64,000 bases of DNA from an uncultured Clostridia bacterium (GCA_949286725.1 CASECZ010000002.1:186001-250000), one strand, 5' to 3'. Counted from the first letter of the stretch, positions 15,941-33,612 are shown. The notes: a model not told the origin generated them from the sequence alone. Made by a program: numbers and translations.

Positions 15941-16164
15941 TATGTCGAAAAGTGCCGTTTTATGCGATTTTGCGCGAAACACCTGTTTACACCCTCGAAA
16001 ACGGCGTTGAAACGCACTCTCCCGCAGGTATGTGCGTGCGATGCGTGCGTCGTGTGCGTGGGCGTGCGAACATAATAATAAATCCTTTTCGTCCGCCGCG
16101 CTTTCCGTTTGCGAAACGTGTTCGGTTTTCGGACGTCGCCTGCAAGGGTAAAACTTGTCCGAAA
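15941..16164. other. Intergenic stretch without recognised feature
   Basis: Between the NrdR box and the galE terminator (15822-16219 has no gene). Short ORFs on either strand lack Shine-Dalgarno sites and resemble nothing I know. Confidence 0.6.
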
Positions 16165-16190
16165 GAAAAACCCCGCGCTCGGCGGGGTGT
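16165..16190 (-). terminator. Terminator of galE
   Basis: Stem CCCCGC / GCGGGG with 5-base loop, followed by TTTTTC on the minus strand. Confidence 0.75.
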
Positions 16191-16219
16191 GACTTCGGGG
16201 TCGCGTTATGCGGGGCGTG

Positions 16220-17233: not shown

Positions 17234-17249
17234 ATATGCCTCCGAATTC

Positions 17250-18374
17250 TTATTTTCGTTTTTCGCGCTTTTCCCGCGCCGCTTTCGCCGCTTGCGCCAC
17301 GTCGCGCTCCATTTGCGGCAACAGTTTTTCCATTTCTTCCACCATTCTGAACTGCGTGCGCGCCCGTACAAGGTTGTGTTCGGGGTAGGCGGTCTTGAAG
17401 TAGACGTCGCCGTCGAGATAGTCGGTGAGGAATCTCATCCCGCATTCGAAAGTCATAAGCACGGCGGATTTTGCCATAAGCGCGAGTTCTTTTTCCGTCA
17501 CGCCGTCGCCCAGTCCGTCGAGAAAACCTTGCGCATAGGCACGGAACAGATTTTCGTCGAAATGCACTTTGTCAAGGTCGGGCTCGTCCTCTTTCGCCGT
17601 GGAACAGCCCGCGCGCACTCCGTCGCCGAAATCGTAGAGCATACTTCCTGCCATAACTGTGTCGAGGTCGATTACGCACACGGCTTTTTTGGTGTCGACG
17701 TCAATCAGTACGTTGTTGAGTTTGGTGTCGTTGTGGGTGACGCGCACGGGAATTTCCCCCGCGGCAAGGGCATTTGTCACGAGCGGACACATTTTTTTTC
17801 TGTCGGTGACGAAACGGACTTCGTCGGGCACGCCGACCAACCGTCCGGCCCTGTCCGCTTTCACCGCCGCTTCGAAAGTGTTGTATCTGTTCGCCGTATC
17901 GTGAAACCGCGGTATGACCTCGAAAAGAGAAGTCGCGTCGAAACCCGCAAGTCCGTTCACGAATTCGCCGAACGCACGCCCCGCGTCCTTGTACATTTCC
18001 GCATCGTCGGCGACAAGGTACGCGTCCGTGTTTTCGATAAACTGCGTCGCGCGCCATACGTCCCCGTCGGGGGATTCGTAATAGCGGCTTCCGTCTTTCA
18101 GCGGGATTAGATTCAGGCACTCCCTTTCGGGGTCGCCCCCTCTTTGCAGGACGGAGCGGCGCAGAAATTCCGTGACGGCAATCATATTGCGCATAAGTCC
18201 GCGCCTGTCGGGGAAAACGTACGGGTTGAGCTTTTGCAGGATATAGCGCACCGCAGTGCCGTCGCCGCGGCGGCAACTTGCGGCGTAAGTATCGTTGATG
18301 TGTCCGTTGCCGTACGGGGACACGTCGAAACAAACTCCCTCGAAGGCAAACAAAGCGGCAATATCCGACAACAT
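17250..18374 (-). CDS. NahK-like sugar 1-kinase (APH fold)
   Basis: 374 residues from ATG 18374, spaced 8 bases from GGAG; ATG 18380 two codons upstream is an alternative. GNGHINDTY near the N-terminus is the phosphate-binding region typical of N-acetylhexosamine 1-kinases. [14 protein letters not shown] (catalytic loop) and [21 protein letters not shown] (metal-binding loop) complete the aminoglycoside-phosphotransferase fold. In Bifidobacterium, NahK phosphorylates GlcNAc/GalNAc in the lacto-N-biose pathway together with a GalE. No lacto-N-biose phosphorylase is visible here, so the exact substrate is inferred. Confidence 0.8.
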
Positions 18375-18508
18375 TTTCATTTCTCCCTCGGGCGTATCGT
18401 ACACCCGATACAATTTTAATATCTGCCACGGCAAAAGTAAAGGGAAAGACGGACGGAACGTTTTTTGCGGATAAGCCGCGAATATCTCAAAAACGGCAAA
18501 TAACCGTA

Positions 18509-18538
18509 TTGACAATGCGTATGCGTGCGCGTTATAAT
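18509..18538 (+). promoter_or_regulatory. Promoter of the 12-gene glycoside operon
   Basis: TTGACA (18509-18514), 18 bases, TATAAT (18533-18538). No other strong promoter is seen before the terminator at 32547. Confidence 0.82.
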
Positions 18539-18558
18539 TAGTTAAAAGTTTTAATTAA
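18538..18558 (+). promoter_or_regulatory. Candidate operator for the ROK regulator
   Basis: 21-base inverted repeat TTAGTTAAAA-G-TTTTAATTAA with one mismatch between arms, starting on the last base of the -10 box. AT-rich arms beginning TTAGTT resemble operators of XylR/NagC-type ROK repressors; such a repressor is the third gene of the operon. Confidence 0.65.
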
Positions 18559-18587
18559 CCCTCGGAAGTTCCGCGGGCGGAGGTAAA

Positions 18588-19091
18588 ATGAAAGTTGCAA
18601 TCGGGTCCGACAAATCGGGCTTTACATTGAAAGAAGCAATCAAAGCGTATCTCTGTTCCGACGAGGCAAAAGCGGCGGGAGTGCAGTTCGATCCCGCGCG
18701 CGACGACCTCGGCACGACGGATGTTGCCGACGTGCATCCGTACTACCGCGTAGCGGGCGACGTCGCCCCTAAAGTGCTTGCGGGTGAGTACGACCGCGCA
18801 ATCCTCATATGCGGTACGGGCGCGGGTATGAACGTCGTGTCCAACAAGTTCAAAGGTCTGAGCGCGGTAGTGTGTGAAGGCGTGTACTCTGCGCGTATGG
18901 CGCGCGTCATCAACGGCGCGCAGGTGTTGTGTATGGGCGGTTGGATTATCGCGCCCGAACTCGGCATCGAAATGGCAAAAGCTTTCCTCGGTGCCGAAAC
19001 GTACGTCGGCATAGAGGAATGGCGCAAGGATTGGTTGTCCGCCGCGGCAGCCAAAGTCAAAGAAATCGAAGACGAAAACTTCTCCGATTAA
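18588..19091 (+). CDS. RpiB/LacAB-family sugar isomerase
   Basis: 167 residues, about 20 longer than RpiB. GSDKSGFTLKEAI at 6-18 replaces the usual SDHGGxxLK, so the substrate-contacting histidine is lysine. ICGTGAGMNVVSNKF carries the catalytic cysteine and anion-binding glycines. The family interconverts aldose and ketose phosphates (ribose 5-P, galactose 6-P, allose 6-P). With a changed N-terminal motif the substrate may be unusual. First gene of the operon, 14 bases before the Fe-ADH gene. Confidence 0.82.
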   Translation: MKVAIGSDKSGFTLKEAIKAYLCSDEAKAAGVQFDPARDDLGTTDVADVHPYYRVAGDVAPKVLAGEYDRAILICGTGAGMNVVSNKFKGLSAVVCEGVYSARMARVINGAQVLCMGGWIIAPELGIEMAKAFLGAETYVGIEEWRKDWLSAAAAKVKEIEDENFSD

Positions 19092-19104
19092 ATACGAGGC
19101 AGAT

Positions 19105-20208
19105 ATGAAATTCGGTTATTCGCAACCCGTCGAAATAAGGTTCGGAGCGGGCACGAGGACGGAGGTCGCCGAGGTTATGCGCAAGCACGGCTTCAAACGC
19201 GGCATTCTCGTTGCCGACGCCTCCTTGGTCGCAAACGGAAGAGCGGATGAGGTTGCAAAGGCGGCGGGACTTGCCGCCGTGTTCGACGGCTTCGGCGCAA
19301 ATCCCGACATAACCGCTGCGGACAAGGCCGCCGCACTCGTGAAGGACTGCGGCGCGGACTGCGTCGTGGCGTTGGGCGGCGGCAGCGCAATGGACCTTGC
19401 CAAGTTCACCGCGCTCGTCGCAAAAAGCGGGAAGTGCGCGGAGGAACTCTTTTACGGGCAACTTACCGCCGAGGGCTTGCCCGTCATCGCTTTGCCCGCC
19501 ACGGCGGGAACGGGGAGCGAGGTCACGGGCGTTTCGGTAATGAGCGATGCGGCGCGCGGTGCCAAAAAGCCGCTCGTGTCGCAGGCGTTTTTCGCAAAGG
19601 CGGCAATCGTCGACCCGGAACTTACGTTGAGCGTTCCTCCCTTCGTCACGGCGACGAGCGGACTCGACGCGATATCCCACGCGCTGGAAGCGTACTGGTG
19701 CAGGGCGCACAACCCGATAAGCGACGCCCTTGCCGAAAAGGCGTTGAAACTGATGTTCGGCAGTCTGGAAAGGGCGTACCGCGACGGCGGCGACGTCGCC
19801 GCGCGCACGGATATGAGCCTCGGCGCGCTGGTTGCGGGGCTGGCGTTTGCGCCCACGCGCACCGCCGCGGTGCACGCGTGCAGCTATCCGCTGTCCGAAA
19901 TTTACCATATGCCGCACGGCGAGGCGTGCGCGTTCACGCTCGACATGTTCGTGAGAATGAACGCCGCGCTCGACCCCGAGAGAACGGAGGCACTTGCCCG
20001 CGCGCTCGGTTTTGCCGACTGCGACGCTATGGCGGACGAAATCGCGCGGCTCAAAAGGGCAACGGGAATGCGCCACACCCTGAAAGAAATCGGGTGCGAC
20101 GACGTCGAGGGGCTTGCCGCGGCTTGCGCGGCGCACCCGCTCATGCAAAATAACAAAAAGGCGTTTTCGGCAGAGGAACTCGCCGTCGCTTTCGGAGGAT
20201 TGAAATGA
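19105..20208 (+). CDS. Iron-containing alcohol dehydrogenase
   Basis: 367 residues. GGGSAMDLAK near 94 binds the dinucleotide phosphates. The metal ligands fit an Asp near 190 (TSGLDAISHALEAYWC) and histidines in ISHALEA and HACSYPLSEIYHMPHGEA. Family III dehydrogenases reduce or oxidise alcohols, glycerol, lactaldehyde or sulfolactaldehyde-type aldehydes. Here it probably disposes of an aldehyde fragment of the imported sugar. It overlaps the regulator gene by 4 bases. Confidence 0.88.
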   Translation: MKFGYSQPVEIRFGAGTRTEVAEVMRKHGFKRGILVADASLVANGRADEVAKAAGLAAVFDGFGANPDITAADKAAALVKDCGADCVVALGGGSAMDLAKFTALVAKSGKCAEELFYGQLTAEGLPVIALPATAGTGSEVTGVSVMSDAARGAKKPLVSQAFFAKAAIVDPELTLSVPPFVTATSGLDAISHALEAYWCRAHNPISDALAEKALKLMFGSLERAYRDGGDVAARTDMSLGALVAGLAFAPTRTAAVHACSYPLSEIYHMPHGEACAFTLDMFVRMNAALDPERTEALARALGFADCDAMADEIARLKRATGMRHTLKEIGCDDVEGLAAACAAHPLMQNNKKAFSAEELAVAFGGLK

Positions 20209-21332
20209 CTTCTTCGGGAACCCGCAGTCTGAAAGGTCTTCGCCGCGGAAACAAGGAAGCAGTGCTATTTCTGCTCATGCGCGGCGGCGAAATGTCGCGT
20301 GTCAGAATAGCCTCGTCCACGGGACTGACGACGGCGTCCGTCACGCAACTGGTAAAGGACCTGATTGCCGAAGGGCTGGTGGCGGAGAGCGGAGAACTCC
20401 CGCGCGAAGTGGCGGGCAGACGCGAAACCCTGTTGAAATTCGAGGCGGGGTCCGTCGCCGCGATAGGCGTCAACGTGGAGAGCGACCGCACGCACCTTTC
20501 CGCCTGCACATGGAACGAAGTTCTGCGCGAGGAAATCTATCCCACGGCGGAACTCTTCGCCGACGGCACGGGCAAACTCAAAGAGAGAATAAACGAACTC
20601 GCGAAGCTGTGCGAGGGCAGAATATTCGCGGGGGCAGGCATTGCAATCGTGGGTCTCACCGACGACGAGGAGGGGGAGTCCGTCAGCAGTTACGGAGTTC
20701 TTCCCGACGGATACGCGCTCGCCAACGACATCGCCGCGGGCACGGGAATGCACGTCGAAATGACCAACAACGTGCGGGCGCAGGCCCGCGCCCTGATGAC
20801 GGGCAAAGAGGACAGTTTCATGCTCGTCAAACACGGACCCGGCGTCGGGTGTGCGGTTATCGCCGACTGCGCGGTGGTCGCGGGAGCGGCAAACCGAGCG
20901 GGCGAAATCGGGCATACCGTCGCCAAGGAAGGGGGCGAACCGTGCCGTTGCGGCAAACGCGGTTGCCTGGAAGCGTATGTGTCGGAAAGGCGCATAAGAA
21001 CACTTTATCTTGCAAAAACGGGCAATGAAATATCGATTTCGGAGATATATGACAAATACGGCGAGGACGCCGCGGCGACGGAAATCCTGGACGGATGTCT
21101 TGACTTGCTCGCCGTGTCCATAGGCAACGCCGCCATGTTGCTCAACCCCGTGCGGGTGCTTGCGACGGGCGGAATCTTCTCCCGAGAGAAACTCTTCGAC
21201 GCTTTCCGTGCGGCGGTGGTCAAGGCGGGCTTCGGCGGCTCGTTCGCTCTGTCGCGTATAGGCGACGACAAAAAACTAAAAGCGTTTTCGGGTGCGCGGC
21301 ACGTCATTCTGCGCCGCGTATTCGGATTGTAA
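20205..21332 (+). CDS. ROK-family transcriptional regulator
   Basis: 375 residues. An N-terminal winged helix-turn-helix (about 15-70, RVRIASSTGLTTASVTQLVK) precedes an ROK sugar-sensing domain with the zinc motif CRCGKRGCLEAY near 247-258 and a GHTV-type segment. It lacks a clear intact kinase phosphate loop, as in repressors of the NagC/XylR/Mlc class. It starts by ATGA overlap with the Fe-ADH gene. Likely it binds the palindrome at 18538-18558 and is released by an intermediate of the pathway. Confidence 0.9.
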   Translation: MTSSGTRSLKGLRRGNKEAVLFLLMRGGEMSRVRIASSTGLTTASVTQLVKDLIAEGLVAESGELPREVAGRRETLLKFEAGSVAAIGVNVESDRTHLSACTWNEVLREEIYPTAELFADGTGKLKERINELAKLCEGRIFAGAGIAIVGLTDDEEGESVSSYGVLPDGYALANDIAAGTGMHVEMTNNVRAQARALMTGKEDSFMLVKHGPGVGCAVIADCAVVAGAANRAGEIGHTVAKEGGEPCRCGKRGCLEAYVSERRIRTLYLAKTGNEISISEIYDKYGEDAAATEILDGCLDLLAVSIGNAAMLLNPVRVLATGGIFSREKLFDAFRAAVVKAGFGGSFALSRIGDDKKLKAFSGARHVILRRVFGL

Positions 21333-21342
21333 GGAACGTGTT

Positions 21343-22659
21343 ATGGCTAAAAGAAAAATCAGATTGGGCATAGTTTGCCTGACGCGCAACACTTTCGACT
21401 TCAAAGCGGCGGAAGAAATCTACCGCGGCATAGTCAAAAAACTGGAAGCAAGAGAAGACATATCTCTTGCGGCGTTTGCCGACCCCGTAATGGAAATCCC
21501 GCAGGCAATCGAGGCGGGCGAGTTTCTGCGCAGGGAGGGCGCGGAAGCGGTCGCCGTCGTGTCGGGGACTTTCCACCTCGGCGGATTGGTGCTGGAAATC
21601 AAAAAACGCTGTGACAAACCTCTTCTGCTGTGGGGGTTGCCCGAACTGCCGTACAATGGCGGCAAAATCAGGCTCAATTCCGTGTGCGGCGTAAATCTCA
21701 ACGCGTCCAACCTGTTCAAAAGCGGATACAGAGATTTTGCGTACAAGGTATCTTCCGACATAGACGAGGACTGGCTCGATGCAGTACGTATGATTTCCGC
21801 GCTCCGCGAGGGACGCATAGGCGTGCTCGGTTCCCGCGCGCACGGGTTCTACAACGTCGGTGTGGACGAGCTCGCGCTTTACCGCAAATACGGTTGTTCG
21901 GTGGAGTTCTGCGAGTTGTCGGAGGCGTACTCCTTTGACGCGGACGAAAAGAGCGTTGCCGAATACCGCGAACGCACTGACCGACTTTTCGACGGCAGCG
22001 GCGTGACGGAGGTGCAGAAGGACAAGGTTGCCGTGCTTTGCGCACGTCTCAAAGCCTTTATGCAGGCGCGCGGATTTTCCGCGCTTGCCGTGCGTTGCTG
22101 GCCCGAGTTCGCGGCGGGGTTCGGCATTGCGCCCTGTGCGTCGATGTCCCTGTTGCAGGACGATGGTTTCGTACTTGCCTGCGAGGGCGACGTGGACTGC
22201 GCGCTCACCATGCTTTGTCACAAAGCCGCAGGTGCCGACGTGCCTTTCATGGCGGACATATCGCAGGTGGACGACGCGGCGGGGACCGCTCTCATGTGGC
22301 ATTGCGGCGTGGCTCCGCGTTCTCTGTGCGCCGCCGACTGCACGGCGACACTCGACACCTATTTCGCGGGCGGCAGAGGAGTGACGGCGGGTTTCGTCAT
22401 GAAGTGCGGCAGGGTGGAAATCGCAAGACTGGACAGCGTGAACGGCAAATACAGACTGTACACCGAAACGGGCACGGCGGTGCCCATGGAAAAACAGCTC
22501 ACGGGTACGTATGCCAAGGTTAAATTTGACCGTCCCGCCAAGGAAGTGCTGGACAGAGTGATATACGGCGGCATCGCCCACCACGTGTCCATGGTTTACG
22601 GCGACTACGGCAAGGCGTTCGAGACCTTTGCCAGACTGACCGACACGGAGATACTATGA
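21343..22659 (+). CDS. L-fucose/L-arabinose isomerase-like protein
   Basis: 438 residues from ATG 21343 (AAGGA 8 bases upstream). The fold signature includes VVSGTFHLGG and LLLWGLPE in the N-terminal domain, GRIGVLGSRAHGFY in the middle and AVRCWPEF near 250, as in fucose isomerase-related proteins. The C-terminus (about 340-430) looks like the fucose isomerase C-terminal domain. Family members isomerise aldoses and ketoses with Mn2+, but many remain uncharacterised. It overlaps the DUF4867-like gene by 4 bases. Confidence 0.78.
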   Translation: MAKRKIRLGIVCLTRNTFDFKAAEEIYRGIVKKLEAREDISLAAFADPVMEIPQAIEAGEFLRREGAEAVAVVSGTFHLGGLVLEIKKRCDKPLLLWGLPELPYNGGKIRLNSVCGVNLNASNLFKSGYRDFAYKVSSDIDEDWLDAVRMISALREGRIGVLGSRAHGFYNVGVDELALYRKYGCSVEFCELSEAYSFDADEKSVAEYRERTDRLFDGSGVTEVQKDKVAVLCARLKAFMQARGFSALAVRCWPEFAAGFGIAPCASMSLLQDDGFVLACEGDVDCALTMLCHKAAGADVPFMADISQVDDAAGTALMWHCGVAPRSLCAADCTATLDTYFAGGRGVTAGFVMKCGRVEIARLDSVNGKYRLYTETGTAVPMEKQLTGTYAKVKFDRPAKEVLDRVIYGGIAHHVSMVYGDYGKAFETFARLTDTEIL

Positions 22660-23294
22660 AACCGCATTTCGACTGCGACATAAAGGTGCTGACGACGGAG
22701 GACGAAAGCCCTCTGTTCGGGCGCGTGGACGTCGACACGACGGAGATACTGCGTCTTGCCGAGGGTCTGGAATACGCCGCCGAAGGCAACACGTACGTCG
22801 CGTCCGACCCCGTGCTCGAAGAGATCGCCGCGGTAAGGGAAATAGAAAGGAAGGTTTTTGCCGAACTGCCCGTGCAGGCGGGTTGGTGTTTCGGCAAGAA
22901 CAGAAAGATGAACGGCATGGAGTGGCACAAGTCCTCCGAAACGGTCGTCGCCTGCACCGACTGCGCGCTGATACTCGGTGACGTAAAGGACGTAATCGAC
23001 GACGTCTACGACTCTTCCCGCGCGGTGGCGCTGTATCTGAAAAGGGGAGAGGCGGCGGAACTGTTCTCGGGGACTTTGCACCTCGCGCCGTTGCCCGTCG
23101 GGGAGCGGTTTGCCGCGGCGATAATCCTGCCCGCGGGCACGAACTCTCCTTTGAAGGGAGGCATAGACGGCACCTTGCGCGCCGTCAACAAATGGTTGTT
23201 GGTTCATCCCGAGAACGAAGCGGGATTGCGTGCGGGAGGAAAAGCGGGCGTGACAGGCACAAATATCACGCTGACGGGATATGACGACGAATAA
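22656..23294 (+). CDS. DUF4867-like protein
   Basis: 212 residues, no signal peptide. PVQAGWCFGKNRKMNGMEWH, then CTDCALILGDV, and a C-terminal segment with HPENE resemble DUF4867 proteins found next to sugar-isomerase genes in Firmicutes; the fold looks cupin-like (beta-rich with GTLHLAPLPVG). Function unknown; an aldose epimerase or isomerase accessory role is possible. Genes on both sides overlap it (4 and 14 bases), so it is a core part of the pathway. Confidence 0.62.
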   Translation: MKPHFDCDIKVLTTEDESPLFGRVDVDTTEILRLAEGLEYAAEGNTYVASDPVLEEIAAVREIERKVFAELPVQAGWCFGKNRKMNGMEWHKSSETVVACTDCALILGDVKDVIDDVYDSSRAVALYLKRGEAAELFSGTLHLAPLPVGERFAAAIILPAGTNSPLKGGIDGTLRAVNKWLLVHPENEAGLRAGGKAGVTGTNITLTGYDDE

Positions 23295-24273
23295 AAACGC
23301 GGTTGCCGACGTGCTGTGCATATCGGGTATGATTGTCGCGTGGACGGCGTACTACCTTGCGTCGGACTGGGCGGTCGGATTCACGGGGTCGGCTTTTGCG
23401 GCGGGAATGCTCCTGCGCGCGGCGGCACTGGTATTCCTCACCGTGTATCTCATCGTTCGAGGCAAGTTCGCCCTGATATTCAAACAGGGCAAAACCGCGC
23501 TGGTGCTGCTCGTCATAGGCGTACTGGGTTATATGCTGGACACGTTCGCGAACCTCGGGTTTGCCTACGGGTCGGTGGGCACGGGCACCGTGCTGCTCAA
23601 AACCGACATACTTATGGCAAACGTCGCCACGGCGGTGTTCCTCAGAGAAAGGCTTTACGCCTCGGACTGGATTGCCACGCTCGTAATGCTCGGCGGCGTT
23701 ATAATGGTGCTGGACATAGACTTCGCCTCGGCGACGTTCAACTGGTACGACCTGTTCTTCATCGCAAGCGCGGCGTCGGTTACGGCAAACGCATTTGTCA
23801 TAAAGGGAGCGCAGGACAAGCTCGGCGCCGACTCCGACGTTATCGGTTACTACAACAACTTCGTGGTGTTGGTGCTGTTCACCGTCAGTTCGCTGATAGC
23901 GGGTGACTTCGGCAGGTTTGCGTCGCTGGACTTCGAGGTGTGGCACGTTTTCGCCATACTGGGCGGCGGTCTTGCGCAGACGCTCATCTACGTGTTTTAC
24001 TATCGCAATCTGCGCCGTCACCCCGTGTGGGTCGTCAAACTGTATATGCTGTTCGTCCCCGTGCTGACCTGCATAGCGGGCGTACTGCTTTTCGACGAGA
24101 GCTTCGGCGCGATGAAAGCGGTGGGTATGGTGCTTGTGCTCGGCGGGGCGGCGGCAATCGCTCTCCGCGGCAAAATCAACGGCGGCAAAATCGTCCGCAA
24201 GGACTGGGCGGAGTACGTCTACCGACGCGAGGAAAGAGAAGGAGAAGATTATGAGACTGGTTCGGCAAGGTGA
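23281..24273 (+). CDS. EamA/DMT-superfamily permease
   Basis: 330 residues with about ten hydrophobic segments spread over residues 7-295 in two repeated halves, the EamA pattern. There is a charged cytoplasmic tail. Family members export or import small metabolites. Because the operon also has a GPH symporter for uptake, this one may export an end product; that is inference. It overlaps its neighbours by 14 and 23 bases. Confidence 0.82.
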   Translation: MTTNKNAVADVLCISGMIVAWTAYYLASDWAVGFTGSAFAAGMLLRAAALVFLTVYLIVRGKFALIFKQGKTALVLLVIGVLGYMLDTFANLGFAYGSVGTGTVLLKTDILMANVATAVFLRERLYASDWIATLVMLGGVIMVLDIDFASATFNWYDLFFIASAASVTANAFVIKGAQDKLGADSDVIGYYNNFVVLVLFTVSSLIAGDFGRFASLDFEVWHVFAILGGGLAQTLIYVFYYRNLRRHPVWVVKLYMLFVPVLTCIAGVLLFDESFGAMKAVGMVLVLGGAAAIALRGKINGGKIVRKDWAEYVYRREEREGEDYETGSAR

Positions 24274-26224
24274 TACGGCGGCACTCTTTTTCGGGGGAAG
24301 AAAAGTGTTCGAACACACACCGCAAAATCCTTTCGCGACCGCTTTGGCGGGGAAGATTTCCTATCGGAGCTCCCACGGCAATTTCAAGGTTGCGGAAAAG
24401 ACGGGCAAACGAACGCCGCTTATGCTGGAAGCCGCGGACGGCAACGTGCTGACCTTTTCGGCGGACGGCAAGAGTCTGCGCGTCACCGTCACCGAAAAGT
24501 GCGACGGCGTGGAACTCGGGCTCGACCCGAACTGCGCTTTCGTCACGGAACTGCGCTTTGCGGCAATACCCGACGAGGGCATGTTCGGCGGCGGGGAGCA
24601 GTACCGTCAACTCAACATGAAAGGGGAGAAAATCGTCAACTTCGTTTCGGAGCACATCGTCGTGCCGCCCATCGTCAGAAAGACGATTTTCAAGTTTTTG
24701 CCTTACAAGGAAAAACCCCATTCCTATATCGAAACATACAGCCCGATGAGCACGTACACGAGCAGCGAGAAATACGCGTTGCGTTTCGACGTGTCGTCGT
24801 ACGGCGTCGCGGATTTCACGCGCGGGGACGTGTCCGTTTTCCGTTTCAAGGACTGCCCGAGGAGCGTGTATTTCACGGCGGGCAAGGACTTTCATTCCGT
24901 CGCGCGGGCGCTCAACGCACACACACCGTGCAGAGCGTATCTTCCCGACTGGTGCAACGAAGGAATGATTGTCGCGGTGCAGGGAGGAATGGAGCGAGTG
25001 ACGGAAAAGGCACTTTATATGCAGAAAAAGGGCGTTAAAGTGTCGGGTGTGTGGTGTCAGGATTGGAGCGGCAGAAAAGTGACCGCCGTCGGCAAGCAGG
25101 TGTACTGGAACTGGGAAGCCGACCGCACGCTGTATCCCGACATCGAAAAGGGCATTGCAAGGCTCAACGACGCGGGCATAAGATTTCTCGCCTACATCAA
25201 CCCTTATCTCGTCAGGGGCGGCAGACTGTACGAGGAATGCGCCGCGAACAAAATGCTCATTCTCAACGCGGAAGGGGAGGTGTATCACGTCAAGTCGACG
25301 ACGTTCGACGCGGGCATGCTCGACCTCACCAATCCCGCCGCGGTGGAGTTCGTGAAGGAAAGACTGATAAAGAAAAACATGCTCGACCTGGGCATAGACG
25401 GATACATGGCGGACTTCGGCGAGTATCTGCCCGTCGACTGCGTGTTGCATGACGGCGACCCTGCGGAAATGCACAACGAGTGGCCCGCCCTGTGGGCGAA
25501 AATCAACCGCGAAGCGGTGGAGTCGCACCCTCGCGCAAAAGAGATATTCTTCTTCACGCGGTCGGGGTACAACGGTGCACAGAGCCACACGACGATTATG
25601 TGGAACGGCGACCAGCACGTGGACTTCACCAAGGACTACGGCATGCCGTGCGTCATGCCCGCGTCCTTCAATCTCGGATTTTCGGGCATGGCGGCGGTGC
25701 ACAGCGACGTGGGCGGTTTCATAAGTTTCGCGTCGCTTGCGCGCAGCAAGGAGTTGCTTGTGCGGTGGACGGAGATGAACGCGTTTTCTCCGCTCATGCG
25801 CTCGCACGAAACGATACGTCCCGATGTCAACGTGCAGCCTTACGACGACGAGGTCATCGGGTACACGGCGTCGCTCGCGCGCGTGCACGCCGCGCTCAAA
25901 CCTTATATCGCGCATTGCATGGACGAGGCGTGCGAGGGCATACCCGTCATGCGTCCCGACTTTTACGAGAGCGGGGACTTCGGCGAACACAAAGAGGACT
26001 ACGCCTATCTTCTCGGTGCCGACGTGTTCGTGGCTCCCGTGACGGAAAAGGGCGCGCTCGCGCGCACGGTGACTTTGCCCGCGGGCAGGTGGATAAAGTT
26101 CTTCGACGGCACCGAACACGAGGGAGGCGGCACGGCGACGTTCGACGCACCGCTCGGCAAGCCCGTCGCGTTTTACAGAAAGGGCAGTTCCTTTGCGGAA
26201 CTGTTTGCCTCGGTCGCGCTGTGA
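24251..26224 (+). CDS. GH31 glycosidase of the YihQ (sulfoquinovosidase-like) group
   Basis: 657 residues from ATG 24251 (AAGGAG upstream). It matches E. coli YihQ closely in pattern: GVWCQDWSG, LAYINPY, MADFGEY with the nucleophile D388, and WNGDQHVDF with acid/base D454. In YihQ the sulfonate pocket is built from Gln262, Gln288, Arg301, Trp304 and Tyr508 (numbering from memory). The equivalents here are Q244, Q270, Q283, W286 and F490, so the arginine and tyrosine are replaced. No signal peptide, so it acts in the cytoplasm on an imported glycoside. The scaffold is certain; the exact substrate is open. Confidence 0.9.
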   Translation: MRLVRQGDTAALFFGGRKVFEHTPQNPFATALAGKISYRSSHGNFKVAEKTGKRTPLMLEAADGNVLTFSADGKSLRVTVTEKCDGVELGLDPNCAFVTELRFAAIPDEGMFGGGEQYRQLNMKGEKIVNFVSEHIVVPPIVRKTIFKFLPYKEKPHSYIETYSPMSTYTSSEKYALRFDVSSYGVADFTRGDVSVFRFKDCPRSVYFTAGKDFHSVARALNAHTPCRAYLPDWCNEGMIVAVQGGMERVTEKALYMQKKGVKVSGVWCQDWSGRKVTAVGKQVYWNWEADRTLYPDIEKGIARLNDAGIRFLAYINPYLVRGGRLYEECAANKMLILNAEGEVYHVKSTTFDAGMLDLTNPAAVEFVKERLIKKNMLDLGIDGYMADFGEYLPVDCVLHDGDPAEMHNEWPALWAKINREAVESHPRAKEIFFFTRSGYNGAQSHTTIMWNGDQHVDFTKDYGMPCVMPASFNLGFSGMAAVHSDVGGFISFASLARSKELLVRWTEMNAFSPLMRSHETIRPDVNVQPYDDEVIGYTASLARVHAALKPYIAHCMDEACEGIPVMRPDFYESGDFGEHKEDYAYLLGADVFVAPVTEKGALARTVTLPAGRWIKFFDGTEHEGGGTATFDAPLGKPVAFYRKGSSFAELFASVAL

Positions 26225-26276
26225 CGCGGTCGGGTATAGACGAAAATCTCCGTCAATGACGGTCAAGGGGGAAAAT

Positions 26277-27968
26277 ATGAGTCAACAAGTCGCAAATGAA
26301 GCCGCACTCGGCGACAACAACGAGAAGAGCTACATTGCCCGTTCGTCGGGGCTGAAACTGCCCGATTACATCGGATACGCGCTCGGCGACACCGCATGCT
26401 GTCTGGTGTTCGGACTGGTGACTTCGCTTTTGCAGAAGTTCTACACCGACATCATGGGGCTGGGTCCGCTGTTCATCATGCTCATGATGGTGGGCGCGCG
26501 CATATGGGACGCGATAAACGATCCGATAATGGGGCGCATCGCCGACACAATAAAGGTCAGCCGTTGGGGCAGATACCGCCCGTGGTTCCTGTATGCGTCC
26601 ATACCGCTCACGATAAGTTCCATACTGATGTTCGTCAAATGGCCGGGCATCGAGGAAGGCTCCGTGGGTATGGCGGTCTACGCCACCGTGACGTACGTTA
26701 TGTTCGGCATGAGCTACACCGCATTGCAGATTCCGTACGGGTCTCTCGCGACCGTCGTCACCACCGACGAGAAGGAACGCACCAAACTTTCCGTGTTCAG
26801 GTCGGTTGGCGCAGGCATCGGCAGCATGCCCGTCATCCTGATTGCGTCCTTCTGTTACGCGGACCGCATGGTGGACGGCGTGCCCGTGGTCGGCGAGGAC
26901 GGCAACGTCATTCAGGACATGCAGTACACACCCGTGCTCATCGGCGTCATCATTCTGGCACTGTTGTCTTTCGTCATGCTGATGCTTGCGTTCCGTTTCA
27001 ACAAGGAGAGGGTCAACACCGCTCCCGCGGTAAAACGCGCAAAAGGCGAAACGTGGCGCATAATCAAAACTTTGTTCAAAAACCGTGCGTTCATCTCGGT
27101 AAGCTGCGCGTCGATGTTGCTGCTTGCTTCGCAGATGTTCACGCAGAGCTATTATCTCTACCTCTTCGACGACTTTTTCGGCAAGAACTGGATGAACACC
27201 GTGTCCACGGTGTGCACCTACGCGCCCATGGCGATACTGATGTTCTTCACGCCCAAACTCGTGCGCAAGTTCGGCAAACGCGAGATATGCGCCGCGGGCA
27301 TCGCCTTGTCCGCCGTCGCCAACCTGCTGATGTTCGCGACAAAGAGTCTGATGCCTTCGGCGTGGTGGCTCTTCCTCGTGCTCTGCTTTTTCAGCGGATG
27401 CGGTCAGGCGTTCATCATTTTGCAGGTGTGGTCCATGGCAACCGACGCAATCGACGACGTCGAGGTCAAATCCAAGATGCGCGAGGACGGCACGTCCTAT
27501 TCCGTGTTCATGTTCTTCCGCAAACTGGGGCAGGTCATAGCTGCGGTCGCGGTCAACGGTGCGTTGCTTGCGATGAACTACAAGACCGAAGTTGGTTCCG
27601 TGCAGACCGCCGAAACGCTGAGCACGATGTACGATATGGCGACGCTGATCCCCGCCGTGCTGTTCGGCATCATGGCAATCATACTCTTCGTGTGGTGTCC
27701 GCTGTCCAAGAAACGCGTCGGCGAGTTGCAGGTGGAGAAAGAGGAAATCCTGCGTTTGCACTACGAGTCCGGTGAAATCGGCATTCAGGGTCAGCACATC
27801 ACGGGCGACATAGGCGTGAGCGACGTTGCCGAGTTCCCCGACGACATAGGCGTGACCATGAAAGTCGTGGACGCACCCGAAATCTCCGCCGAGGAAATCC
27901 CGACGGAGGAGACTTCCGAAGAGGAAGTGCCCGCAGGCGACGACAAAGACGATGAACAATCAAAGTGA
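26277..27968 (+). CDS. GPH-family sugar:cation symporter
   Basis: 563 residues with about 12 membrane segments between 30 and 480. DYIGYALGD near the N-terminus and GARIWDAINDPIMGRIADT are signatures of the glycoside-pentoside-hexuronide family (MelB, XynB/XylP, YihO). A long acidic cytoplasmic tail (about 485-563, rich in E and D) is unusual. RBS AAGGGGG precedes the ATG. The pairing of a GPH carrier with a YihQ-type GH31 repeats the arrangement in the E. coli sulfoquinovose operon. It overlaps the esterase gene by 17 bases. Confidence 0.92.
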   Translation: MSQQVANEAALGDNNEKSYIARSSGLKLPDYIGYALGDTACCLVFGLVTSLLQKFYTDIMGLGPLFIMLMMVGARIWDAINDPIMGRIADTIKVSRWGRYRPWFLYASIPLTISSILMFVKWPGIEEGSVGMAVYATVTYVMFGMSYTALQIPYGSLATVVTTDEKERTKLSVFRSVGAGIGSMPVILIASFCYADRMVDGVPVVGEDGNVIQDMQYTPVLIGVIILALLSFVMLMLAFRFNKERVNTAPAVKRAKGETWRIIKTLFKNRAFISVSCASMLLLASQMFTQSYYLYLFDDFFGKNWMNTVSTVCTYAPMAILMFFTPKLVRKFGKREICAAGIALSAVANLLMFATKSLMPSAWWLFLVLCFFSGCGQAFIILQVWSMATDAIDDVEVKSKMREDGTSYSVFMFFRKLGQVIAAVAVNGALLAMNYKTEVGSVQTAETLSTMYDMATLIPAVLFGIMAIILFVWCPLSKKRVGELQVEKEEILRLHYESGEIGIQGQHITGDIGVSDVAEFPDDIGVTMKVVDAPEISAEEIPTEETSEEEVPAGDDKDDEQSK

Positions 27969-29214
27969 CGCAAATTTCGTTTACGCTTCCCCTCCGTGCG
28001 GAGCGGTCAAGGGCAGAGCGGAAAGAGGAATGAAAGTGTTCCTCGGCATTCCGTATGCCCGTGCGGACAGGTTTTGTCTGCCCGAGCGCGCGCGGTGGGA
28101 GGGCACTTTCGACGCCACGCGGTTCGGCGAATGTTGCCCGCAGAAGAGAGCGTACGCCGACGAGAGCGTGTATTCGCCCTTCTATTACAGGGAGTTCAGG
28201 GAGGGCGTCGGGTTCAGGTACGGAGAAGACTGTCTTGTGCTCAACGTCTACGCCCCCGCCCGAGGCGAAAATCTGCCCGTCGTGCTTTTCGTGCACGGAG
28301 GGTCATTTTTCAAGGGCAGTGCGGACGAGCGTCCCTTCGACGGAGAGGAGTACTGCAAAAGGGGAGTTATCCTCGTCACGATGAATTACAGACTGGGCGC
28401 GTTCGGAATGCTGTCGGACGACAGCGTGCCTTTCAATCTTGCCTTGCACGACCAGTTCTCCGCGCTCGAATGGGTGCACGACAACATCGCCGCCTTCGGA
28501 GGCAACCCCGACAACGTGACGTTTGCGGGGCAGAGCGCGGGCGCGATATCCGTGCAGATACACGCCCTGCGCCGCGAGACGGCGAAGTACGCCGCGCGCG
28601 TCGTGATGATGAGCGGCGGCGGTTTTCTCGGAGGGCTGTTCGCCCCGCACGACCAGAAATACGCCGTGCGTTTTGCGAAAAAGGTTGTCGCGGCGGCGGG
28701 AGTAAAGGACTTCGACGGGCTGCGCAAACTCGACGCCGAGGACCTTTTCAAGGCGTGGCAACGCGCCTTCGACGGCAGTCTGACCGCGCAAATCGCGGTT
28801 TTGCCGTGTATGGACGGCGTGCTCGCGTCAAGAGAAAACTACGACCGTTTCGACGACGAACGACAGTTGCCCGCGCTGTTCGGAGTGACTGGCAAGGACA
28901 TTGCGCCCGCGATAATGCGGCGGGCGGTAAAAAAATATGCCGAGCGGTCGTCCGCCGACTGTTACGGCTACATTTTCGACCTGCCTCTTGCGGGCGGCGG
29001 CAAAAAGGGAGCGTGGCACAGTTGCGACCTGTGGTTCGCCTTCGGCACGCTTTCGCGCAGTTGGAGACCTTTTGCCGCCGAGGATTATGAGGCGTCGCGG
29101 AGACTTGCGGACGCGGTGTGTTCCTTTGCCTCCCGCGGCGTTCCCGCAAGCGACGGCAGGGCGTGGGTCAAACTGCCTGAGAAGTTCGAGGTGTTTTCCC
29201 CGCCTCGACGCTGA
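27952..29214 (+). CDS. Type-B carboxylesterase
   Basis: 420 residues, somewhat short for the family, without a signal peptide. VVLFVHGGSF forms the oxyanion hole, GQSAG carries the nucleophile Ser195, and GAWHSCDLWFAFG holds the catalytic histidine. It should hydrolyse esters in the cytoplasm, for example acyl or aryl groups on the imported glycoside. Overlap with the symporter gene argues for a matched role. Confidence 0.88.
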   Translation: MNNQSDANFVYASPPCGAVKGRAERGMKVFLGIPYARADRFCLPERARWEGTFDATRFGECCPQKRAYADESVYSPFYYREFREGVGFRYGEDCLVLNVYAPARGENLPVVLFVHGGSFFKGSADERPFDGEEYCKRGVILVTMNYRLGAFGMLSDDSVPFNLALHDQFSALEWVHDNIAAFGGNPDNVTFAGQSAGAISVQIHALRRETAKYAARVVMMSGGGFLGGLFAPHDQKYAVRFAKKVVAAAGVKDFDGLRKLDAEDLFKAWQRAFDGSLTAQIAVLPCMDGVLASRENYDRFDDERQLPALFGVTGKDIAPAIMRRAVKKYAERSSADCYGYIFDLPLAGGGKKGAWHSCDLWFAFGTLSRSWRPFAAEDYEASRRLADAVCSFASRGVPASDGRAWVKLPEKFEVFSPPRR

Positions 29215-29277
29215 CTTCGCAACCGAGCGCGACAAGGCGCTTCCGCGGAAGAACCGCGACATACGGAGGAACCCGAC

Positions 29278-30456
29278 GTGATAAAATTCGCCGTTGTGGG
29301 AGTGGGACGAATGGGCACGGTGCACGCGCTGAACCTTTACTTCGGAAGGGTGCGCGGCGCAAGCCTTTACGCGGTGTGCGACACCGACCCGACAGCCCTG
29401 GAAAAAGCGCGCAGGAGATTTCCGCGCGCAAAAGCTTTTGCGGACACCGAGAGCATGCTCGCCGACGGAGGCGTACAGGCGGTGGTGGTCGCGACGCCGC
29501 ATTATTCTCACGCAGACATTGCGGTGGCGTGCCTTGAAAAGGGAGTGCACGTGCTTGTGGAAAAACCGCTCGCCGTCACCGAATTGCAGGCACAAAGAAT
29601 CGTCGACGCGTCCGAACGCAGCAGGAACGCCGTCGCCGCCGTTATGCTGAACCAGCGCACAAACCCTCTTTACCGACGCGCGCGCGAACTCGTGCGGTCG
29701 GGAGAACTGGGCGAAATACAGCGGGCACAGTTCGTCATCACGGACTGGTACCGCTCGCAGGCGTACTACAATCAGGGCGGCTGGCGGGCAAGCCTGTGCG
29801 GAGAGGGCGGCGGCACGCTGATAAACCAGTGCGTGCACCAGCTGGACGTGCTGCAATGGATATTGGGAATGCCGCGCGCGGTCGAAGCGAAGATGTACAC
29901 AAAAGGTCGGGACATAACGACGGAGAACGACGTGACGGCGGACTTCGATTACGGTGACGGGGTGCACTGCGTTTTCGTTGCCAGCACGCACGAACTGCAC
30001 GGCTCCAACAGGCTGGAAATCGCGGGAACGCGGGGCAGAATTGTCGTGGACGGGCTGAGAATGAAGGTGTTGAAATTCCGCAAGGACGAGCGCACCGTAA
30101 ACGCCGAAACCGTGAAGGGATACGGCAAAGTCGGTTGCAGGACGTACCGTTACGACCACCGTGCGGGGTTTGCGCTCGGCTTCCTGCGAGGCGGACAACA
30201 GCGCAACATACTTGTCAATTTCGCGGCGGCGATAGCGGGCAGGGCGGAGCTGATATCCCCTCTTGCGGACGGGCTTTGCTCCGTGAGAATGATAAACGCG
30301 ACCTACGCGAGCGGCTGGACGGGCGAGCGCGTGGACATACCCGTTCCGCCGACGGAATACGAGCGCATGCTCGAAGAAAAAAGGCAACAGGAAAGAGCGG
30401 CGAAAGCGGCGGTTTGCCGCCCCGCCGAAACTGATAAAAGGGAGGACAAACAATGA
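29278..30456 (+). CDS. Gfo/Idh/MocA-family oxidoreductase (first copy)
   Basis: 392 residues starting at GTG (CGGAGG 9 bases before). VVGVGRMGTVHA is the Rossmann motif and VEKPLAV carries the catalytic lysine. VMLNQRTNPLYRRA, TDWYRSQAYYNQGGWR and GGGTLINQCVHQLD are shared almost word for word with the second copy at 31366. Such enzymes oxidise a sugar hydroxyl with NAD(P)+, often at C3 of a glycoside. A basic, charged C-terminal tail follows the domain. Confidence 0.9.
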   Translation: MIKFAVVGVGRMGTVHALNLYFGRVRGASLYAVCDTDPTALEKARRRFPRAKAFADTESMLADGGVQAVVVATPHYSHADIAVACLEKGVHVLVEKPLAVTELQAQRIVDASERSRNAVAAVMLNQRTNPLYRRARELVRSGELGEIQRAQFVITDWYRSQAYYNQGGWRASLCGEGGGTLINQCVHQLDVLQWILGMPRAVEAKMYTKGRDITTENDVTADFDYGDGVHCVFVASTHELHGSNRLEIAGTRGRIVVDGLRMKVLKFRKDERTVNAETVKGYGKVGCRTYRYDHRAGFALGFLRGGQQRNILVNFAAAIAGRAELISPLADGLCSVRMINATYASGWTGERVDIPVPPTEYERMLEEKRQQERAAKAAVCRPAETDKREDKQ

Positions 30457-31373
30457 AAATAAGCGGTTTCACCGACGAGGTGTCGTCGAAGCTTGATGTC
30501 CAAATCGGGGTTTTACACGAACTGAACAGACACTTTATGTGCCCGCGCGGTATAAACGGCAAGAACATTTCCGAGTACACCGCGGAGGAGTTCGCAAGAG
30601 ACGTCAAACCCGTTCTCGACAGAGAGGGCATAAAGATAAGCAGCATCGGGTCGCCCATCGGCAAGGTGGCAATCGACGACGAGGACGGTTATGCAAGACA
30701 ACTTGCGCAACTCAAAGAACTGGTCAAAATCGCGCAGATGACGGGGTGCGGCTACATAAGGATTTTCTCCTTTTTCGTCAAGCCCGACTGCGATTATTCC
30801 GCCATGTTGCCCGTGGTCGTGGGCAAGCTCCGCGGCTTTCTCGACGTCGTGCGCGGCAGCGGTGTCAAACTGTTGCACGAGAATGAGAAGCACATCTTCG
30901 CCGACGTGCCCGAGCGCGTCGCCGCGGTTTACGAGGAGATAAACGACCCCGACTTCGTGTTGTGCTACGACGCTAGCAACTTCATTCAATGCGGGTGCGA
31001 CCCGTGGCAGGCGTATCTCGCACAGCGCGACCGCACGGTATACTACCATATGAAGGATTGCACGGACGGCGTGGAAGTTCCCCTCGGCACGGGTCAGGGA
31101 CACATACGCGAAATCCTCTTCGACCTCACGGCGAGGGGATACGACGGTTTCCTCACCCTCGAACCGCACACTTTCAAATACGCGCTGATGAAGATACCCG
31201 TTTATCTGTTGCCGCCCGCGGGCAAACTGAAAACCCTGCGTCGCGTGTACAGGCAGATAGACAAGGAGATGGGCGTGTCGGCGTTCAAGAGCGTCAGCAG
31301 AAAAGACGTCTATCTCAAACAACACGAAAACATTGTGAAAATCCTCGAAGAGGCGGGAGCGAAATATGAATAA
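30453..31373 (+). CDS. Sugar phosphate isomerase/epimerase-like TIM barrel protein
   Basis: 306 residues of the xylose-isomerase-like TIM barrel (AP_endonuc_2) family. Likely metal ligands are the Glu of LHENEKH, the Asp of CYDASNF, the His of YYHMKD and the Glu of LTLEPH. The family includes epimerases, hydroxypyruvate isomerases, dehydratases and the enzymes that act after a Gfo/Idh oxidation in 3-keto-glycoside cleavage. It sits between two Gfo/Idh genes with overlaps of 4 and 8 bases, which supports a joint oxidation-elimination or epimerisation route. Confidence 0.88.
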   Translation: MKISGFTDEVSSKLDVQIGVLHELNRHFMCPRGINGKNISEYTAEEFARDVKPVLDREGIKISSIGSPIGKVAIDDEDGYARQLAQLKELVKIAQMTGCGYIRIFSFFVKPDCDYSAMLPVVVGKLRGFLDVVRGSGVKLLHENEKHIFADVPERVAAVYEEINDPDFVLCYDASNFIQCGCDPWQAYLAQRDRTVYYHMKDCTDGVEVPLGTGQGHIREILFDLTARGYDGFLTLEPHTFKYALMKIPVYLLPPAGKLKTLRRVYRQIDKEMGVSAFKSVSRKDVYLKQHENIVKILEEAGAKYE

Positions 31374-32520
31374 AGTCAGATACGGCATTGTAGGCATAGG
31401 CAAACAGGGCACGGTGTACACCAAGATGTTCACCAAACTCGGCGGGTTGCTCAAAGGAGCGGAACTCACCGCCGTGTGCGATATCTCGGAGGAGCGCCGC
31501 AAGTACGCGCGCGAAAACCTCAAAGGCGTCGAGGTGTTCGACGACTACCGCAAGATGTTTGCGTCGGGGCTCATTGATGCGGTGATGATAGAGACCCCGC
31601 ACTATTTCCACCCCGAAATCGCAAAGGCGGCTTTCGAGGCGGGGCTCAACGTGCTCTGCGACAAGCCCGCGGGCGTGTACACCTTGCAGGTGCGCGATAT
31701 GATACGCGCGGCGGACGAGCACCCCGATCTGCTTTTCGGAATGATGTTCAACCAGCGCACCAATCCGCTTTACGTCCGCGCAAAGGAGATTGTGTCGAGC
31801 AAACAGTTCGGCGAACTCAAACGCATAGTTTGGATAATCACCAACTGGTACCGTCCCAAGGCGTATTACGACCAGGGCGGCTGGCGCGGCACCTGGTGGG
31901 GCGAAGGTGGCGGAGTGCTGCTCAACCAGTGTCCTCACCAGCTCGACCTGTTTACGTGGATTGCGGGGCTTCCCGTGTCCGTCATAGCGACGGCGTCCAC
32001 GCGCGGCCGCGACATCGCGGTCGAGAACGACGTCACGGCGCAATGCAAGTTCGCAAACGGAGCCACGGGTGTGTTCATCACCTCGACGCACGACGCGCCG
32101 GGCACCAACCGTCTCGAAATCACGGGCGACGGCGGCAAAATCGTCATCGAAGGCGGCAAACTGACCTATTACGCCAACGCCGTGCCCGAACCCGAGTTCA
32201 GCCGCACCAACAAGGTGTTTATGGGCAAACCCGCCGTCAAGAAGACAACTTACCGCGGCATAGGACAGTATCTCGGATTTATGAAACATCCGCCTCAGCA
32301 CCTCGGCATAATCCGCAATTACACGGACTACCTGCTCGGCAAGACGGACAAGTTCATCGCGCCCGGCAGAGAGGGCATAACGGGGCTCACGTTCTCCAAC
32401 GCCATTCACCTTGCGGCGTGGACGGGCAAAGAGGTTTCCATACCTCTGGACGAAAACCTGTTCCTTTCCGAACTGGAAAAACGCAAAGAGGAAGAAAAAG
32501 CCGCGGGCAAGAAAGGCTGA
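31366..32520 (+). CDS. Gfo/Idh/MocA-family oxidoreductase (second copy)
   Basis: 384 residues. GIVGIGKQGTVY is the Rossmann motif; the catalytic-lysine motif reads CDKPAGV. MMFNQRTNPLYVRA, TNWYRPKAYYDQGGWR and GGGVLLNQCPHQLD mirror the first copy, so the two arose by duplication and may work on the substrate and the product of the same route. Last gene of the operon, followed by a strong terminator. Confidence 0.9.
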   Translation: MNKVRYGIVGIGKQGTVYTKMFTKLGGLLKGAELTAVCDISEERRKYARENLKGVEVFDDYRKMFASGLIDAVMIETPHYFHPEIAKAAFEAGLNVLCDKPAGVYTLQVRDMIRAADEHPDLLFGMMFNQRTNPLYVRAKEIVSSKQFGELKRIVWIITNWYRPKAYYDQGGWRGTWWGEGGGVLLNQCPHQLDLFTWIAGLPVSVIATASTRGRDIAVENDVTAQCKFANGATGVFITSTHDAPGTNRLEITGDGGKIVIEGGKLTYYANAVPEPEFSRTNKVFMGKPAVKKTTYRGIGQYLGFMKHPPQHLGIIRNYTDYLLGKTDKFIAPGREGITGLTFSNAIHLAAWTGKEVSIPLDENLFLSELEKRKEEEKAAGKKG

Positions 32521-32546
32521 CGGAGTTTCGGAGTGCACGATACGAA

Positions 32547-32579
32547 AAAACGCGCGACAGCGACAGGGTCGCGCGTTTT
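32547..32579. terminator. Terminator of the glycoside operon
   Basis: 12-bp perfect stem AAAACGCGCGAC / GTCGCGCGTTTT with a 9-base loop; T-runs on both strands, so it can serve the convergent fragment at 32606 too. Confidence 0.9.
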
Positions 32580-32605
32580 CGTTTGTCGGTGGGTATGTGT
32601 GCAAA

Positions 32606-33046
32606 CTATTTGTTCTTGTCCTTATCCGTGCGTATGCCGTCGCCGCCTATTATTGCCGCAACGGTTTCGTCGTCGGCGTCATACCCGAAGAACGTCAGAT
32701 AAAAATCCTTGATTTTTTCCTCTATCGTGTAGTCGAACGCTTCGGGATAGAGCACTTTTGCCAGCCAGTATATTGCAAGCGGGGTTTCTATGCTGTTGGG
32801 GTGTCCGTAGCGCGTCACGCCAACGGGTATCTGATAGACCCTGTCGTTGATGACGGCGTTTACGCCCACGAACCGACTGTCCGACCGAATGGTGTCGTCA
32901 ACGCCCGCTTCGTTGCAGACGATGACTTCGGGGTCCCAGGCGAGTATCTGTTCCAGCGAGGCGCTGGTCTTGTCGCCGACGACGGTCAGACTGCTTGTGA
33001 CGGACACGTTGTTCGCGCCCGCCGCCGCCGTCCATTCCGCGTCCAT
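32606..33046 (-). pseudogene. Truncated ABC-transporter iron/cobalamin-type substrate-binding protein
   Basis: Only about 146 residues remain, matching the C-terminal lobe of FepB/BtuF-type binding proteins: SLEQILAWDPEVIVCNEAG, NDRVYQIPVG, TPLAIYWLAKVLYPEAF. The N-terminal lobe, signal peptide and lipobox are missing. The ATG has no Shine-Dalgarno site, and the frame upstream (RFPRPTGFA) soon runs into AT-rich promoter-like DNA (TTGACA with TAGAAT 17 bases away). A deletion seems to have joined an old promoter to the 3' half of the gene. No permease or ATPase gene is adjacent. Confidence 0.75.
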
Positions 33047-33132
33047 AGCAAAGCCCGTAGGTCGCGGAAATCGGATTTTTATATTATTCTATAATATAAG
33101 GTGCGTTTTGTCAATGTCGTCCTTTGCGGGCG

Positions 33133-33612
33133 TCATTTCAAGTGCTCCTCGGCAAAGGCTTTGAGTTCCTTTGCGGACGCTTTTGCGGAAAACCTCTTGC
33201 CTTCCTTCAATGCGGCACCTTTGCAGGACGGCGCGAGCTCTTGCACGGTTCTGCCCATTCCGCTGCTGCCCGAGGTCGCAAACGGCACCACCGTTTTGCC
33301 GTTCAGGTCGCATTTTTCGAGGAAGGTGTTGACGATTGTCGGCGCGACGTACCACCATATCGGAAAACCGACGAAAACGACGTCGTATCGGGACGTGTCG
33401 GGCACTTCGCCCGCAATCGGGGGCCTGAACGATTTGTCTTTCATCTCCACGCTGCTGCGGCTGCGTGGGTTTGTCCAGTCGAGGTCGGCGTCCGTGTAGG
33501 GCGTTTCGGGTCGGATTTCGTACGTGTCCGCGCCGATTGCTTCGGCAAGTCTGCTTGCGAGTGCGGCAGTCACGCCGCTTGCGGAAAAGTATGCAACGAG
33601 AGATTTTTTCAT
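33133..33612 (-). CDS. Flavodoxin
   Basis: 159 residues from MKKSLVAYFSASGVTA; AAGGAG lies upstream of this ATG, while the longer frame has none. SASGVT is the FMN phosphate loop (usually S/T-x-T-G-x-T), and VFVGFPIWWYVAPTIV flanks the isoalloxazine ring, as in flavodoxins with a double tryptophan. It is a small soluble electron carrier or quinone/nitro-reductase-like protein. Its gene is divergent from the TIGR04076 gene. Confidence 0.9.
   Translation of the reverse strand: MKKSLVAYFSASGVTAALASRLAEAIGADTYEIRPETPYTDADLDWTNPRSRSSVEMKDKSFRPPIAGEVPDTSRYDVVFVGFPIWWYVAPTIVNTFLEKCDLNGKTVVPFATSGSSGMGRTVQELAPSCKGAALKEGKRFSAKASAKELKAFAEEHLK

Follow-up and report, generated by a model that had tools for sequence, protein, structure and literature searches.

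Which substrates does a twelve-gene operon of an uncultured, gut-type Clostridia bacterium serve, and by which route? The operon lies on a stretch of 64,000 nucleotides (GCA_949286725.1 CASECZ010000002.1:186001-250000, called the window below), where twelve open reading frames (ORFs) follow each other on the + strand from 18588 to 32520. An earlier note, made from the sequence alone, had assigned it to one unknown, possibly anionic, glycoside and held that it matches no described route of sulfoglycolysis. We give a probability of about 0.58 to another reading, in which two modules for C6-acid glycosides share one promoter and one ROK repressor, a sulfo-transketolase-type module A and a glucuronide module B. 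Module A (genes 1-8) is best described as the sulfo-transketolase set minus its transketolase, and module B comprises genes 9-12. The arrangement is new, its parts are known. Five or six of the sulfo-transketolase families are present, SqwGH being the only one that the operon lacks, which contradicts the claim that no described route fits. The idea of an anionic glycoside survives in the form of a C6-acid glycoside, but a single substrate is doubtful, since g10-g12 can be set apart as a glucuronide module. Profile searches (Pfam, NCBIfam) bore out the families that the note had named, in order RpiB/LacAB, iron-type alcohol dehydrogenase (Fe-ADH), ROK, fucose-isomerase C-terminal domain, DUF4867, EamA, GH31 and GPH in genes g01 to g08, and carboxylesterase, Gfo/Idh, xylose-isomerase-like TIM barrel and Gfo/Idh in g09 to g12.

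Module A and the sulfo-transketolase route

The sulfo-transketolase route comprises an isomerase (SqvD/SftI), a transketolase (SqwGH), an isomerase (SqwI), a metal-dependent alcohol dehydrogenase (SqwF) and an exporter; a DUF4867/SftX protein is a frequent companion (PMC11659671, PMC12890257, PMC13219744, PMC11968277). Like the pathway of Clostridium sp. MSTE9, Faecalicatena and rumen Clostridia (PMC11659671, PMC13219744, PMC12890257), module A has a putative SftI/SqvD-type isomerase, an SqwI-type RpiB, an SqwF-type alcohol dehydrogenase, an exporter, a GH31 and a DUF4867 protein. Unlike that pathway, it has neither an SqwGH within the operon nor an extra genomic copy of it; a GPH symporter takes the place of the ABC importer, the exporter is EamA and the GH31 has the motif QQQWF. 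Its first six genes are the following:

18588..19091, + strand: g01, RpiB/LacAB-type isomerase, SqwI-like (4-deoxy-4-sulfoerythrose isomerase); PF02502, 1.8e-33
19105..20208, + strand: g02, iron-type alcohol dehydrogenase, SqwF-like aldehyde reductase; PF00465/PF25137
20205..21332, + strand: g03, ROK-family repressor with winged helix-turn-helix; PF00480 plus helix-turn-helix
21343..22659, + strand: g04, sulfoquinovose isomerase-like (SftI/SqvD); NCBIfam NF048012 SftI, 1.9e-59
22656..23294, + strand: g05, DUF4867 cupin, SftX-like; PF16161, 7e-49
23281..24273, + strand: g06, EamA permease, candidate sulfonate exporter; PF00892

We compared clusters at the 40 genome loci encoding relatives of the isomerase, taking gene orders only where homology supports them, as some ORFs of GC-rich loci are called on the wrong strand. 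Clusters are termed transketolase-bearing when split transketolase halves lie beside the isomerase and RpiB, their identity as SqwGH being taken from gene content. Split transketolase genes occur at L011, L013, L015, L018, L027-L029 and L034. Window-like loci with RpiB and Fe-ADH and no transketolase are L005-L007, L041, L009, L010, L014 and L016, with others in the g3 genomes; the remaining loci are of other types, many with transaldolase.

In the RpiB tree, all cluster RpiBs, g01 included, form one clade (100/100) separate from housekeeping RpiB, and among its members are RpiBs whose genes adjoin split transketolase (SqwGH-like) genes. The source genome encodes another, housekeeping RpiB; g01 is thus a distinct enzyme of the SqwI type, and it retains the basic residues K11, K17, K89, R108 and R148. 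Three transketolase-bearing clusters are nested among transketolase-less ones (100/97), and hence the transketolase was either lost from or gained by the operon within this lineage. The isomerase tree agrees, at lower support, in nesting g04 with the isomerases of transketolase-bearing clusters. The sister clusters L011, L013 and L015, which comprise transketolase halves, RpiB and isomerase and a QQRWY GH31, encode isomerases matching g04 at 57-60%. On the SftI model g04 scores 202 bits (cut-off 700).

The g02 protein matches the alcohol dehydrogenases of the transketolase-bearing clusters L018, L034 and L027 at 44-47% and scores 234 bits on PsrA and 204 bits on the sulfoacetaldehyde reductase SarD, both under cut-off; this similarity suggests an SqwF-type aldehyde reductase. 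The cupin g05 matches the SftX/SqvB DUF4867 structure (PDB 9GYY, 1.7e-35), with the same family and metal-ligand pattern, ExHxxxE...H (E89, H91, E95, H142), and no difference noted. The permease g06 has a 40% homologue in the transketolase-bearing clusters L028 and L029. A signature of substrate change, sought in the intracellular enzymes by comparing transketolase-bearing with transketolase-less clusters, was not found in RpiB or in the isomerase, where one column (A294C) differs. Between the two cluster types the conserved basic residues of RpiB and isomerase are nearly all the same, and none of those invariant in canonical clusters has disappeared throughout the transketolase-less group. 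Isomerase residue H83, which all transketolase-bearing clusters share, is replaced by G in g04; it is G or I only within the window's genus.

Where is the transketolase?

The source genome encodes two split transketolase pairs (contig C2, 158-163 kb), about 43 kb upstream of the operon and unlinked to it. The two are divergent and adjoin each other (G000:C2:158200-162900; L003:8209-12877), a proximity also seen in several family members. A dedicated SqwGH elsewhere in the genome was rejected because both split transketolases also occur in members of the genus that lack the operon: the transketolase N-domain has two matches in 10/10 genus genomes and the isomerase is found in only 5/10. The closer pair was rejected in the same role, as the tree groups it with copies from its own genus. 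In each of five further transketolase-less genomes that we inspected, the transketolase is likewise unlinked. We infer that the ordinary split transketolase is the candidate substitute for SqwGH. The sulfo-TAL pathway, which is marked by a sulfofructose transaldolase, was rejected, since no member of the transaldolase family PF00923 was found in the source genome, whose completeness is given as 97.8%.

The GH31 and the sulfonate motif

The glycosidase of module A is the component that fits least well:

24251..26224, + strand: g07, GH31, YihQ subfamily, QQQWF replacing QQRWY; PRK10426, 633 bits (cut-off 553)

It belongs to the YihQ subfamily over its full length and its top PDB matches are sulfoquinovosidases. 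Its nearest solved relatives are the YihQ/SftG enzymes (PDB 5AED, 5OHS, 6PNR), with which it shares the catalytic Asp pair (D388 as nucleophile, D454 as acid/base); unlike them it has Gln for the sulfonate Arg and Phe for Tyr. The residues recognising the sulfonate are QQRWY in YihQ and KERWY in the Agrobacterium enzyme; g07 has neither and lacks in this a defining mark of a sulfoquinovosidase. Motif positions were checked on PDB alignments; Arg stands at the sulfonate site both in E. rectale SftG (6PNR) and in 8R56. In the GH31 tree, 29 sequences have Gln and 8 have Arg, and one change separates the two states. Where the GH31 is readable, transketolase-bearing clusters all have Arg (including the L011 and L015 genomes) and transketolase-less RpiB clusters all have Gln, with Tyr retained at the last position in L010 and L191. 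Rumen transaldolase clusters also have Gln, again with Tyr (QQQWY). Contigs of rumen metagenome-assembled genomes with YihQ-like GH31s of the QQQWY type are L022, L023, L026, L031, L035 and L040. A literature search on the QQRWY motif, 6-deoxyglucose transketolase pathways and glucuronide-3-dehydrogenase gave nothing useful.

Several features weigh against the two-module reading. Besides Q283 and F490 of g07, at the sites of the sulfonate Arg and Tyr in characterised sulfoquinovosidases, the isomerase, RpiB and alcohol dehydrogenase all score under the NCBIfam equivalog cut-offs. The Fe-ADH columns 119, 263 and 266 set g02 apart from the transketolase-bearing clusters, the exporter is EamA and not of the TauE type, and the action of a housekeeping transketolase on 6-sulfofructose is presumed.

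The Gln in place of the sulfonate Arg means that the substrate may be another C6-modified glucoside. Module A would then apply the same isomerase-transketolase-RpiB-reductase logic to, e.g., neutral 6-deoxyglucose, giving acetaldehyde and then ethanol. The clean split of the GH31s speaks for this alternative, both along the tree (Gln in 29/29 of one group, Arg in 8/8 of the other) and among cluster types. Yet the sugar-processing enzymes retain the basic residues of canonical clusters, ethanol requires no exporter and the GPH is common to a glucuronide module. Moreover, some Gln-type GH31s share their clusters with transaldolase, sulfolactaldehyde-reductase-like and TauE-like exporter genes, a gene content suggestive of a sulfonate. 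Because of this company we keep sulfoquinovoside, with moderate confidence, as the likeliest predicted substrate of the GH31, and regard another glucoside as improbable, though the strongest of the competing explanations. It is equally doubtful that the QQQWF/QQQWY branch and its transketolase-less operons as a whole act on a natural C6-modified glucoside different from sulfoquinovose, along a path parallel to sulfoglycolysis.

Module B and probable glucuronide cleavage

Module B consists of an esterase followed by a Gfo/Idh-TIM barrel-Gfo/Idh trio:

27952..29214, + strand: g09, carboxylesterase (GQSAG); PF00135, 3.4e-79
29278..30456, + strand: g10, Gfo/Idh A, glycoside 3-dehydrogenase type; PDB 8TDI, 2e-74
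30453..31373, + strand: g11, xylose-isomerase-like TIM barrel, candidate 3-keto-glycoside lyase or hydratase; PF01261
31366..32520, + strand: g12, Gfo/Idh B, glucuronide-3-dehydrogenase type; PDB 8TDI, 2.3e-101

Both Gfo/Idh proteins are closest to the P2B11 glucuronide-3-dehydrogenase (8TDI), the dehydrogenase expected in a 3-keto glucuronide set, and the partner set for 3-keto oxidation that had been proposed from the sequence is supported. The g11 protein (AlphaFold model, predicted local distance difference test 94.8) has the invariant metal-site set E143, D173, H199 and E237; its Foldseek matches include epimerases, isomerases and the hydratase AtHYD (8RO4), and the predicted fold by itself would fit a lyase or a hydratase. 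Two oxidoreductases with a xylose-isomerase-like TIM barrel recall P2B11 and the GlycDH/OGE/HYD operon of A. tumefaciens (PMC10628242); unlike the latter, the trio has one TIM barrel instead of two and is embedded in a sulfosugar operon. GH188 SqgA (8QC2), in which Arg166 and Lys172 are the sulfonate residues, has the Gfo/Idh fold and the predicted C3 oxidation in common with g10 and g12, at distant similarity (1e-17 and 1e-11) and partial coverage. With 8TDI far ahead of 8QC2 (just 1.2e-17 for g10), a GH188 NAD-dependent sulfoquinovosidase was rejected.

In relatives the trio lies in one run of genes with UxaC, UxuA, mannonate oxidoreductase, Eda and KdgK, i.e. with glucuronate catabolism, in the g3 and g4 genomes and in G015, G017, G039 and G047, the last four of which lack the isomerase module. 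The order in G006, also devoid of this module, is KdgK-TIM-GfoB-GPH-esterase, the esterase that accompanies TIM-GfoB (gene order at L143) being a homologue of g09. Given the 8TDI match and these uxaC-uxuA-uxuB-eda-kdgK neighbours, g10-g12 most likely cleave glucuronides. The source genome has a complete glucuronate operon of its own (L185, G000:C3:139000-156000, at 6224-16286), with an AraC-type regulator, UxaC, UxuA, mannonate oxidoreductase, Eda and KdgK, a GPH and a GH2 beta-glucuronidase-like gene (560 bits, under cut-off).

One could also see a single pathway for a single glycoside, with the trio acting as an alternative sulfoquinovosidase of GH188-like logic for beta-linked or hindered sulfoquinovose glycosides and the GH31 for alpha-linked ones. 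Gfo/Idh-fold NAD-dependent sulfoquinovosidases do exist (PMC10755693), all genes have a common operon and promoter, and the trio lies with GH31 and isomerase on a single contig in g3 (in g4 with a divergent isomerase). But the nearest solved relative is a glucuronide-3-dehydrogenase, SqgA being far weaker, and the GH188 enzymes were reported from clusters without a GH31 sulfoquinovosidase (PMC10755693). The occurrence of the trio, or of TIM-GfoB in G006, in uxaC-type operons of genomes without the isomerase module is also hard to reconcile with a single pathway, which we find somewhat less probable than another glucoside for module A.

One transporter, two modules

The two modules appear to be tied together by the symporter:

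26256..27968, + strand: g08, GPH cation symporter, predicted for C6-acid glycosides; TIGR00792, 273 bits (cut-off 231)

It shares a clade with GPHs from settings with module A only (L010, the G001 locus) and module B only (G005, G006, the G012 locus), and hence C6-acid glycosides are the common denominator of both. The synteny among Clostridia that the earlier note had proposed to search for is partial: parts of the operon are conserved in at least three of the family's genera, but the modules are separable. They are joined, in varying internal order, in the window, in G008 and G009 (g1), in G019 and G023 (g3) and in G032, G033 and G035 (g4), and lie on separate contigs in G001, G012 and G020. 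An accidental fusion, in which the modules answer unrelated substrates and have only the promoter in common, would suit these separate contigs but is very unlikely in view of the repeated joining in changing order and of a transporter family common to both. A parallel operon at the g4 loci L136, L137, L138, L148 and L150 has a transaldolase, a YihU-like reductase, DUF4867, a TauE-like exporter and a distant isomerase (~30%), with the glucuronide module on the same contig in L136-L138.

Proposed pathway

In the two-module reading, GPH would import sulfoquinovosyl glycerol or a similar compound and GH31 would free the sugar. The SftI-type isomerase would give the 6-deoxy-6-sulfo-ketose, perhaps with DUF4867 assisting at the sugar or ketose, and the ordinary split transketolase would move two C2 units onto glyceraldehyde 3-phosphate, with the SqwI-type RpiB turning the C4 aldose into a ketose between both transfers. 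The leftover C2 aldehyde might be reduced by Fe-ADH (sulfoacetaldehyde to isethionate), regenerating NAD+, and EamA might export the isethionate. Sequence comparison thus favours the import by GPH, isomerisation, aldehyde reduction and export that had been suggested before. Module B would de-esterify glucuronides and then cleave them through oxidation at C3, an elimination or hydration, and a reduction; the glucuronate would pass to the uxaC-uxuA-uxuB-eda-kdgK operon on contig C3. One might speculate that sulfoquinovosyl and glucuronosyl glycerol, which are headgroups of anionic glycolipids in plants, could be fitting substrates for the two modules.

Layout and control of the operon

The twelve genes are flanked by the following elements:

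18509..18538, + strand: sigma-70 type promoter TTGACA-18-TATAAT, 12/12 match
18541..18559, + strand: imperfect palindrome GTTAAAAGTTTTAATTAAC, candidate ROK operator, from a pattern scan
32547..32579, + strand: intrinsic terminator AAAACGCGCGAC-N9-GTCGCGCGTTTT, perfect 12-bp stem plus T run, from the sequence

The promoter is the sole 12/12 match in the scanned region (18000-33200), which holds 12 promoter-like sites for 4.7 expected. Gaps between successive genes from g01 to g12 are 13, -4, 10, -4, -14, -23, 31, -17, 63, -4 and -8, in exact agreement with the seven of eleven junctions said to overlap by 4-23 bases, and the earlier picture of twelve genes between a promoter and a terminator holds. 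The genes are probably carried on a single transcript. The palindrome occurs once in the window. A scan of relatives did not find it ahead of their operons and gave one unrelated match within L014, so that the palindrome stays a candidate operator. Just upstream of the operon, on the - strand (16220-18515), lies GalE, followed by an aminoglycoside-phosphotransferase-like kinase ORF that has no NCBIfam match.

Implications

The turnover of sulfoquinovose is a source of sulfide in gut and rumen, and yihQ serves as its marker gene (PMC13219744). A Gln-type GH31 branch without the sulfonate Arg, standing beside sulfosugar-type enzymes, bears on the reliability of this marker. Rumen surveys (PMC13219744) may count QQQWY genes as sulfoquinovosidases, and we found no characterised Gln-type enzyme; if the branch serves another glucoside, many rumen yihQ genes would be miscounted. 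The operon further suggests that a cell can break down sulfosugars with its ordinary transketolase. It also suggests that bacteria group sulfoquinovosides and glucuronides, which are C6-acid glycosides alike, into a single regulon that has one transporter.

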